A DNA stretch of 64,000 bases from Lactiplantibacillus xiangfangensis (GTDB lineage Bacteria; Bacillota; Bacilli; Lactobacillales; Lactobacillaceae): NCBI RefSeq assembly GCF_001438845.1, contig NZ_JQCL01000057.1:306911-370910 (forward strand). Reading direction: 5' to 3'. The position numbers were made by a program, and so were the translations under genes. Shown here one piece after another: positions 16,342-59,968 of this stretch (position 1 is its first letter; each line of letters starts with the position of its first letter). A model generated the notes under the pieces. The model was not told the origin of the DNA. It made no database searches and was given only the letters and a program-made list of their open reading frames with translations.

Positions 16342-16590
16342 GTAATGAAAGCGCAACCATAATGGCTAGTAAACGAACGGCTTATTTAGAGAGCTAACGG
16401 TTAGTGGAAGTTAGTTAAGCTGGTTGGTTGAATCCACCATTTAGCGCTTGGTTTCGAAATAAGAAACCACGGTGAGGCGTTATACTCATTAGAGAATGCC
16501 GATGCATTAAATTGGGTGGTACCACGTTGATAATCAACGTCCCATAGTCTTAGTAACTAATTAAGACTATGGGACGTTTTACTTTTTTTA
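16342..16590 (+). promoter_or_regulatory. T-box riboswitch (serine specific) controlling serS
   Basis: A ~250-nt leader with the canonical T-box element TGGGTGGTACCACG at 16513-16526. It is followed by a 17-bp perfect terminator hairpin (arms 16536-16552 and 16562-16578) and a T-rich tail. In the Stem I region GAATCCACC fits a specifier loop with TCC (Ser) at 16433-16435, agreeing with the downstream gene. Uncharged tRNA-Ser is expected to stabilise the antiterminator and switch serS on. Confidence 0.95.
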
Positions 16591-22820: not shown

Positions 22821-23056
22821 CGGTTAGCTAGTCCGGTTGTCGCTGATAACATGCGGTCGTGGGACCGGGTCAAGCCTGAGAAACGTCTTGCCCCTCGCCC
22901 GGAGCGATTGCAAAATGCGCAATTGTCCCGGACCGTCCGTAGCCTAAGACCGAAAAATCATCGGTCAAAGGCTACCTTCACGACCGATGCTATCAGTGAC
23001 AACCTCCGAGTAACCGACAGTGATAGCAATAGTAAGACTGTTTTGAGCGGGGTCGG
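22821..23056 (+). repeat. Structured intergenic repeat, module A copy 1
   Basis: A ~180-bp cloverleaf-like inverted repeat with a conserved tail. Closing stem GGTTGTCGCTGAT (22835-22847) with ATCAGTGACAACC (22992-23004); second stem CGGTCGTG (22854-22861) with CACGACCG (22979-22986). Internal hairpins: CGATTGC-GCAATTG and the nested GTAGCCT/GACCG-CGGTC/AGGCTAC. Copy 3 (50446-50668) keeps all pairings with different bases. The tail AATAGTAAGACTGTTTTGAG is also shared. An 80-codon frame inside it (22851-23093) is almost certainly not a gene. Confidence 0.85.
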
Positions 23057-25970: not shown

Positions 25971-26040
25971 GTTACCCGTTGATTAAAACAATGATAATCT
26001 CTGTTTCAGCAAATGATTCAGGGCAAAGGAGCGTAATATT

Positions 26041-36398: not shown

Positions 36399-36437
36399 AG
36401 GGCTTAAGATTGTCAATCGCAATCTGAGCCCTTTTTT
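36399..36437 (+). terminator. murF terminator
   Basis: AGGGCTTAAGATTG, a short loop, CAATCTGAGCCC, then six T. Confidence 0.95.
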
Positions 36438-36475
36438 AGTCCGGTTGCCACTGATGACATGCGGTCGTGGGACCG
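36438..36475 (+). repeat. Truncated module A repeat, copy 2
   Basis: AGTCCGGTTGCC and the following bases through GTGGGACCG match the 5' arm of module A copies 1 and 3 almost base for base. The element then stops, with no 3' arm. It abuts the T run of the murF terminator. Confidence 0.85.
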
Positions 36476-47238: not shown

Positions 47239-47260
47239 GAAACCCGTTTTGCATTTTTAA

Positions 47261-47300
47261 TACGTGGTTCGTAACCATCCCACGTAAAAAAACTAGGAGG
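47261..47300 (+). promoter_or_regulatory. preQ1 class I riboswitch (translational)
   Basis: P1 stem TACGTGG with CCACGTA, a 12-nt loop TTCGTAACCATC, then the A-rich strand AAAAAAACTA running straight into GGAGG. This is the compact preQ1-I layout; the AACC of the loop can pair with the GG of the ribosome site, sequestering it when ligand is bound. The gene downstream is the matching transporter. Confidence 0.9.
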
Positions 47301-47310
47301 AATTATTAAC

Positions 47311-50161: not shown

Positions 50162-50445
50162 CGCTAAGGCCGGTATAAGAGAGGTGAAACCCCAAATAAC
50201 GCACAAACTACTAGTAAATTAGACATAAATTAATTGAGACTATGAGACACAGTCAACTTAGGTTAATAACTGTAGTATGAAACGGTTCTAGTATAACTAT
50301 TTTAATTTAAAGTAGACGGGAACGAGGGCCAATCCATGATCCAAGAATTATGGTTACTAGAGGTTATGGGAGTGATTGATCTGTGTGAAATTAGTGAAAG
50401 TGAAAGGCTAGGGGGTGAATTTGGGAATTAGCTACTTGGTACCTA

Positions 50446-50668
50446 TTCCGGTTGCCACTGATAACATGCGGTCGTGGGACCGGGCCTAGCCTAGGGAGCG
50501 GTCTAGTCCCTCGCCCGTAATAATTGCAAAAAGCACAATTATTACGGACCGTCCGTGGTTTAAGACCGGAAAATCACCGGTCAAACACCACCGTCACGAC
50601 CGATGTCATTAGTGGCGACCTCCGATGGTCTGATATCAATAACAATAGTAAAACTATTTTTAGCGGAG
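50446..50668 (+). repeat. Structured intergenic repeat, module A copy 3
   Basis: Full-length module A. GGTTGCCACTGAT pairs with ATTAGTGGCGACC; CGGTCGTG pairs with CACGACCG. Inner hairpins GTAATAATTG-CAATTATTAC and nested GTGG/GACCGG-CCGGTC/CCAC occupy the positions of different sequences in copy 1. The tail AATAGTAAAACTATTTTTAG leads directly into module B copy 1. The region 50162-50445 before it shows nothing I can name. Confidence 0.9.
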
Positions 50669-50822
50669 TCGGGTAGAGTTGGTGTGCTATGTCGGCAAGA
50701 TTAGTGTGTTTTTTACACTAATCTTGCGGGGCGATTCAAAGACGTGATTTGTCGGCTTTGAATCGAGGTCGCAGACCGCAGTGTGGCTGGGGCCGTCCCC
50801 CATAGCATCCAATTCTACCCGA
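50669..50822 (+). repeat. Structured intergenic repeat, module B copy 1
   Basis: Outer arms TCGGGTAGAGTTGG... and ...CCAATTCTACCCGA enclose four hairpins. H1 is CAAGATTAGTGT-ACACTAATCTTG; H2 is GATTCAAAG-CTTTGAATC; H3 is GGTC-GCA-GACC; H4 is GGGG-CCG-TCCCC. H2 and H3 sequences are constant between copies, while H1 and the outer stem change in both arms together. Similarity to the other copy continues to about 50865 (TTGTGTTACGG). Confidence 0.9.
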
Positions 50823-50900
50823 CGGAGCGGTCAATTTAAGGATAAATAGTATTTGTGTTACGGCGATGATGATAATTTTTGATCTTTGAACCTTTAGACT

Positions 50901-50930
50901 AAAAAAGAACCCGGCGCAATGCCGAGTTCC
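50901..50930 (-). terminator. ldhL terminator
   Basis: GAACCCGGC, a 5-nt loop, GCCGAGTTC (one G-T), with TTTTTT on the minus strand. Confidence 0.95.
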
Positions 50931-50943
50931 CTGTAATTTAAAA

Positions 50944-59475: not shown

Positions 59476-59513
59476 ACGGACGTGACGCATATGGGTCACG
59501 TCCGTATTTTTTT
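59476..59513 (+). terminator. Terminator after yabR
   Basis: ACGGACGTGAC, an 8-nt loop, GTCACGTCCGT, then ATTTTTTT. Confidence 0.95.
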
Positions 59514-59552
59514 AAAGATGACTAAGGGTTGAAAAGTCTAAAATTGCTATTA

Positions 59553-59822
59553 ACACCGTAACAATGGCGATAGTTATTCCTAAATTATCCGCTTCGGCGG
59601 ACAGAACCGATGTGCTATGGGGGGCGGTCCCAGCCAAAGTGCGGTCTGCGACCTCGATTCAAAGCCGCCAGCCCACGTCTTTGAATCGCCCCGCAACGGT
59701 AGTCGACGAAAATCATCGGCTACCGTTGCCGACACAGCACATCAATTCTGTCCGCCTGCGCTAAATTAGCTTTGTTATTATTATCGGATAATCGGAAGCT
59801 GTCATCAGTGGCAGCCGGAATA
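59553..59822 (-). repeat. Structured intergenic repeat: module B copy 2 with a collapsed module A remnant
   Basis: Inverted relative to the 50669-50822 copy. Core at 59596-59756, outer arms GGCGGACAGAA... and ...TTCTGTCCGCC. Read on the minus strand, H1 is CAACGGTAGCCGA paired with TCGACTACCGTTG-like sequence (copy 1 has entirely different bases), while GCGATTCAAAGACGTG, GGCTTTGAATCGAGGTCGCA and CCCCCATAGCA are kept. On its 5' side (59760-59822) a remnant of module A joins TTCCGGCTGCCACTGATGAC directly to the module A tail, lacking the internal hairpins. A short frame at 59564-59764 is not credible. The rest of the gap to tilS is unremarkable. Confidence 0.9.
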
Positions 59823-59968
59823 ACTCACAAGTAGCCAATTTGAGTTTGGATACTGATACAACGGTAATCAATCCCTAAATTTAACTTTCAATCTTCAGAA
59901 AATGACGACTGATTGGACAATGTTAAGATCAAGACACTGTGCTTTGAAATTAAGTGAGAGGTGATTTA

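Follow-up and report, generated by a model that had tools for sequence, protein, structure and literature searches.

What is the cloverleaf-forming sequence that occurs twice, on opposite strands, in a stretch of the Lactiplantibacillus xiangfangensis genome, and on whose behalf is its fold kept? The stretch of 64,000 nucleotides analysed here (contig NZ_JQCL01000057.1, positions 306,911 to 370,910; hereafter the window) had been read from its letters as holding a repeat, termed module B, with constant loops and freely changing stems as expected of a selected structured RNA. We find that the selected fold, the constant loops and the variable stems are real, but that module B does not stand alone, being half of a mobile element in which it is paired with an inverted partner, module A. 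Below, the window's own genome is called G000, its sister genome G004, and a relative with a recent burst of copies G020.

The two cloverleaf units, their fold and their distribution

Covariance-model matches at 50662-50835 on the plus strand (186.6 bits with model R1, which has a 62-pair consensus) and at 59584-59762 on the minus strand (184.1 bits) bear out the two copies of module B, which are 74% identical across 264 bases. The blocks GGGGCGATTCAAAGACGTG, GGCTTTGAATCGAGGTCGCA and CCCCCATAGCA, described in the original prediction as almost unchanged, are identical in copies 1 and 2, and hairpin H1 is indeed swapped with equal pairing, being formed by CAAGATTAGTGT/ACACTAATCTTG in one copy and CAACGGTAG/CTACCGTTG in the other; the outer stem likewise differs in both arms. 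These two are far from the only copies, a possibility that would have weakened the case. BLAST searches of G000 gave 40 scored matches to module B from 77 candidates; for the A side, 100 candidates gave 42. In the window together with the fetched loci of this genome we placed 57 B-like units, of which 52 are B and five belong to a third type, as well as 39 A-like ones, both counts being lower bounds. The tally of 106 covariance-model matches in G000 may include A units and the antisense of one place and is not a copy number. The third, diverged cloverleaf type (79-110 bits) occupies one side of elements L005, L035, L047, L055 and L146 of this genome.

Aligned with one another, 31 module B copies from G000 share a core in which the loops are invariant and the stems change; RNAalifold gives 62 pairs for it, 25 of them with double changes. 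Pairing holds in 96.3% of the cells of this sequence-only alignment, against 33-38% when the partners are slid by one to three columns. Across genera, 81 matches pair in 94.3% of cells (30-39% when slid) in an alignment that was fitted to the covariance model and is hence biased towards it; double changes occur in 54 of the 62 pairs, and double-changed cells number 1259, against 357 in shuffles that do not preserve relatedness. The H1 helix, in which a loss of pairing in further copies would also have weakened the case, carries double changes in 13 of its 14 pairs across genera. By this comparison, the fold is kept by compensatory changes across genera.

The B model also matches module A, on the opposite strand, at window positions 50438-50626 (46.8 bits) and 22823-23010 (39.8 bits), and A is thus a diverged opposite-strand homologue of B with which it forms one inverted pair; an interpretation of A and B as two separate repeat families was rejected for this reason. 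RNAalifold on 28 copies of A returns the same topology as in B, namely an outer stem, H1 and a short P2 stem enclosing H2 and H3; of the 60 pairs in A, 21 carry double changes. P2 reads GGAC/GUCC in A and GGGG/CCCC in B, where it takes two bases that RNAalifold pairs differently; its four pairs in B hold in 68/80, 60/69, 74/77 and 64/80 sequences of the wide alignment.

RNA read from the outward strand is the more stable of the two in 51 of the 52 B units, all five third-type units and 38 of 39 A units; beyond G000 and G004 the same holds for 65 of 70 B units. The p-values of this bias are too small, because the sequences are related and the tests not independent. G-U cells outnumber A-C cells in B by 70 to 27, and no such excess is found in A (34 to 35) apart from four pairs in which G-U is the commonest form. 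This last test supports the RNA strand for B and not for A, and is mixed overall.

The search across Lactobacillaceae that had been proposed as a check shows the unit to be spread over several genera. At E ≤ 1e-4 the B model matches 16 of the 21 genomes of the genus and gives no match in the other five; under stricter filters it matches 46 of 301 genomes across the family, belonging to 8 of 40 sampled Lactobacillaceae genera, and of 395 sampled genomes of the order the ten that match at E ≤ 1e-6 are all Lactobacillaceae. In Rfam there was no gathering-level match over the elements in the window; 50300-50940 at E ≤ 10 and ten loci of several genera at E ≤ 0.5 likewise gave nothing that came near a threshold, two weak miRNA matches on one H1 hairpin among the ten loci being taken as chance. 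With no Rfam match, a known RNA family (riboswitches, T-box, introns, sRNAs) was rejected. The window does hold known leaders elsewhere: a T-box (16347-16547), an L31 leader (25999-26031) and a PreQ1 riboswitch (47258-47302). A phage or plasmid origin was rejected as well, 201 bases of copy 1 being unmatched in plasmids and phages; the exact core pattern was found in no viral contig. No description of the cloverleaf element was recognised in the literature searched; in the available part of PMC2267715 Lactobacillus is named once, for L. johnsonii.

Terminal repeats, insertion sites and the IS4-family partner

Module B is the right half of a composite element with two back-to-back cloverleaf units, each reading outward. 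The order is constant, with the 5' ends of A and B facing inward in 21 of 21 pairs (40 loci from eight other genomes), and copies with both ends measure ∼320-545 bp. The element of copy 1 spans 50391-50897 on the plus strand: behind a decayed left end come module A on the minus strand, a linker between the two 5' ends (50627-50661) that falls between the two model matches, module B, and an intact right terminal inverted repeat, TTTGAACCTTTAG, at 50885-50897 (plus strand), a motif also present in other copies. The element of copy 2 (59522-59898, minus strand) has both terminal repeats and an internally deleted module A, and is flanked by a target duplication identical in six of seven positions, AAGATGA on the left (59515-59521) and AAAATGA on the right (59899-59905). 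A third element consists of module A and only the start of the B side (22823-23010, minus strand; 79% identity to 50440-50672), and a fragment of the module A outer arm (36437-36475, plus strand; 95% across 39 bases) lies directly behind a T-tract.

Intact copies are framed at both ends by the terminal inverted repeats YTAAAGGTTGAAA, and a 16-mer of this repeat has 43 matches with up to two mismatches in G000, against eight for a reversed control. For the burst in G020 we counted 26 pieces of a 544-bp element, which are 84-100% identical to the query copy; 11 of them are near-full-length, at 93-100%. Exact target duplications of 7-9 bp flank 10 of the 17 G020 copies with both ends and are absent in the other seven; mismatched left/right pairs gave none in 272. 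Several G020 copies carry internal deletions, and two share the same 62-bp deletion breakpoints. Spread of a deleted form was considered and rejected for these two, whose deletions are probably independent because each copy shares different point changes with others. In G000, a 40-bp remnant consists of little beyond the two terminal repeats (L219 1501-1540; G000:C15:86920).

Comparison with the sister genome bears directly on mobility. The site of copy 2 is near-empty in G004, with 6 bp in place of 426 bp in the window (the 377-bp element and ∼45 bp of adjoining sequence); the flanks on the two sides match at 99 and 91%. The 507 bp of copy 1 face a 136-bp stretch in G004 that resembles a remnant in the other orientation, with flanks at 95 and 98%. 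We compared 65 loci of G000, for 40 of which the flanks were present in the fetched stretches of G004; at least one unit is kept in place between the two genomes at 12 of these 40 orthologous loci, and five of the 28 non-conserved loci have no more than 17 bp between the flanks in G004. Three same-site pairs hold elements in opposite orientations in G000 and G004 (L132 and L061, L054 and L400, L009 and L410). Clean in-place inversion is not favoured as their cause, since the elements are 76-84% alike against 91-97% for the flanks, which makes independent insertion or conversion as likely as inversion.

In G020, 13 of the 17 insertions have, no more than 20 nt away, a T-tract of five or more T that points at the insertion, compared with 447 of 3400 random nearby points (13%). 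Predicted intrinsic terminators adjoin both window copies: one behind the ldh gene at 50904-50932 (minus strand), with its T-tract ending a few nucleotides from the element of copy 1, and one beside copy 2 at 59476-59505 (plus strand). In the Lactiplantibacillus group, then, most insertions of the element follow closely on terminator-type T-tracts. Among 70 loci (49 in G000, 21 in G004) the neighbouring genes are convergent at 40, tandem at 26, divergent at three and unresolved at one; the background of gene gaps above 30 bp in 1.19 Mb of G004 is 165 convergent, 344 tandem and 150 divergent. The prediction that orientation to neighbours is not fixed is upheld, as B reads with the genes in 14 tandem pairs and against them in 12. 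A cis-regulatory leader RNA was rejected on the same counts, the fixed upstream orientation of a leader being missing and only 3 of the 70 loci lying in divergent gaps. Promoter-like sites near the window copies are no commoner than in shuffles; in copy 2 one such site stands immediately 5' of B.

The copies are short and carry no transposase gene of their own, and an open reading frame of at least 100 aa spans B at only 7 of 70 loci. A candidate source of transposase emerged from the terminal-repeat search in G020, where one pair of repeats 1.57 kb apart, G020:C1:64426-65992 (L275 927-2493), encloses a gene for a 457-aa transposase of the IS4 family (NCBIfam NF049925, 460 bits against a cut-off of 250). 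This insertion sequence has the same ends as the element and is flanked by a 7-bp duplication, ATAGGAG; the cloverleaf is absent from it at E ≤ 10, on which ground the fold was rejected as part of the transposase's own ends. It sits right behind a T-tract and has a terminator-like hairpin and T-tract just inside its left end. Relatives at 50-59% identity occur in four other genomes of the genus, and in two of these the terminal repeat recurs beside them. G000 holds no IS4 relative at E ≤ 1e-30, so movement there would be past or driven from another source. Because terminal ends and duplication length are shared, we infer that an IS4-family transposase moves the element in trans via its short ends.

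In its sequence the element thus has the features by which a miniature inverted-repeat transposable element (MITE) can be recognised, namely terminal inverted repeats, target duplication, shortness without a transposase, and ends shared with an autonomous element in G020. It is accordingly best described as a MITE-like, non-autonomous element with a structured cargo of putative function. The ends are not the same everywhere. In G325, from another genus of Lactobacillaceae, the unit lies between different terminal repeats of ∼40 bp, about GTTTGTGTCCAGCGTAAGCAT (from two left and six right ends, aligned). Its A-side unit was identified by visual inspection of the sequence, the B model not reporting it at E ≤ 0.001. 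At G325 loci including L310 and L313 the element with these unrelated ends is ∼0.95 kb long, and L310 has no open reading frame over 98 aa. In G219 the YTAAAGG end recurs at the A side of two copies, and loci inspected in several further genomes showed no terminal repeat.

The level at which selection acts

We consider it likely that a non-autonomous, MITE-like element carries the two outward cloverleaf units and that their fold is selected mainly in the source elements that spread. An IS4-family transposase would mobilise the element in trans by recognising the short YTAAAGGTTGAAA ends, and the cloverleaf units may act as folded RNA within read-through transcripts, where transcription from either side yields one correctly oriented cloverleaf because the units are paired and inverted. 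The fold would help the element to multiply, or render its insertions harmless, and so be kept in source elements, while most settled copies would subsequently drift.

The chief question put to this explanation is whether each copy serves the host instead, as a structured RNA working in cis within the 3' regions of neighbouring genes (a bidirectional insulator, an RNA stabiliser or an RNase target), with mobility having merely spread the family. Deep compensatory conservation and the strong bias towards convergent gene pairs and T-tracts would suit such a role. If each copy were host-serving, its private changes would be expected to keep pairs. At nine orthologous B loci, 28 single changes keep pairing and 30 break it, against 37% kept under the null (21 and 27 without locus L136). 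L136, to which 10 of the 13 double changes belong, is probably no true orthologue; the totals for both pairing and orthologue divergence include it. Stems at these loci changed less than unpaired positions (87/1101 against 62/504), which points mildly towards a per-copy role. Between G000 and G004 the B core is also slower (128/1593, 8.0%) than arms and linkers (220/1827, 12.0%; p 1e-4). The A core is no slower than the arms (162/1476, 11.0%), however, and either core has diverged further than intergenic sequence beyond the element (115/2963, 3.9%) or open reading frames (7.0%). Within the G020 burst seven changes keep and 16 break pairing, near the neutral expectation, and 3 of 62 pairs are non-standard in the consensus of this active lineage; older orthologous copies retain pairing only slightly better than neutrally expected. 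The retention of a unit at no more than 12 of 40 orthologous loci between sister genomes, and the five genomes of the genus without a match at E ≤ 1e-4, also tell against service to the host, which we regard as unlikely. With little or no pairing preference in the changes of settled copies, a per-copy role is not well supported, and since these copies drift after insertion a host regulatory RNA at each place is weakly supported. Selection seems to act mainly on spreading elements, with weak constraint at most on settled copies. The description of module B as a selected structured RNA is upheld as regards the fold.

Other explanations change what the fold does or whom it benefits. It may matter as DNA, with single-stranded hairpins or cruciforms near the transferred-strand ends aiding transposition or replication; the 3' side of each unit does face a terminus, symmetrically, the units of several G020 copies have suffered internal deletions of the sort seen in hairpin-prone DNA, and module A lacks the excess of G-U over A-C. 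We nevertheless think this rather improbable, as a fold of this kind is missing from the insertion sequence that shares the ends, IS4-type transposition acts on double-stranded ends, and the strand bias in stability is more easily explained by RNA. It is doubtful, to a further degree, that the cloverleaf pair is a selfish RNA module riding different DNA transposons, its RNA aiding transposase capture in trans, as a bacterial counterpart of the SINE RNAs that parasitise LINEs; here the vehicles do differ (IS4-type ends in Lactiplantibacillus, unrelated ∼40 bp ends in G325) and the inverted cloverleaf pair is conserved. Very improbable, finally, is an inert passenger, that is, a plain MITE in which copying alone has preserved an ancestral palindrome as the fold, its structure being under no selection. 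The near-neutral decay of single copies would agree with it, and BOX, RUP and other MITEs are likewise described as tightly folded in the available part of PMC3049150. An unselected, drifting palindrome would lose pairs, however, whereas 54 of 62 pairs are double-changed across genera, with the excess of double-changed cells over relatedness-blind shuffles given above, and the same unit is found between two unrelated sets of terminal repeats.

Significance and relation to known systems

A folded element outside Rfam accounts for dozens of intergenic insertions in G000, and within its family at least eight genera have it. The common view is that a non-autonomous element requires little beyond its ends. 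Here, a complex internal fold is kept by compensatory change across genera and is found between two unrelated sets of ends, though it is missing from an insertion sequence that shares one of these sets. Whether RNA structure can aid the spread of a DNA element thereby becomes a testable question. Insertion behind terminator T-tracts, which the element has in common with the single copy of its IS4-family partner, is a second concrete and testable point.

With regard to movement, a parallel is MIC231 of Bacillus cereus, whose non-autonomous cassettes are moved in trans by an IS4-family transposase (IS231). Movement of this kind would be alike in both, the difference being that MIC231 carries cargo genes and the present element two structured non-coding units. 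ERIC, REP/BIME and SPRITE sequences are shorter than this element, with other folds and with other or unassigned movers. Like it, they are palindromic intergenic repeats, often near 3' ends (in part from the portion of PMC3049150 available). The bcr1-bcr18 repeats of B. cereus resemble the element as interspersed repeats of 100-400 bp; in the available parts of PMC6542083 and PMC3446304, bcr1 reaches up to 130 copies, bcr1-3 are called MITE-like, and bcr10 and bcr18 have conserved RNA structure. Their mobility is tied there to a TTTAT motif, and no inverted cloverleaf pair or IS4 partner is described in those parts (PMC6542083, PMC3446304).

Similar in habit are BOX and RUP of Streptococcus pneumoniae, which according to the available part of PMC3049150 are likewise intergenic, high in copy number, tightly folded and enriched between convergent genes, BOX being modular and the ends of RUP resembling those of a host insertion sequence. 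The likeness to BOX, which is built of boxA-boxB-boxC modules, is one of way of life only. Unlike BOX and RUP, as far as they are described in that part of PMC3049150, the element reported here has its homologous cloverleaves as an inverted pair, shares its ends with an IS4-family partner, inserts behind T-tracts and is conserved across genera of a family.
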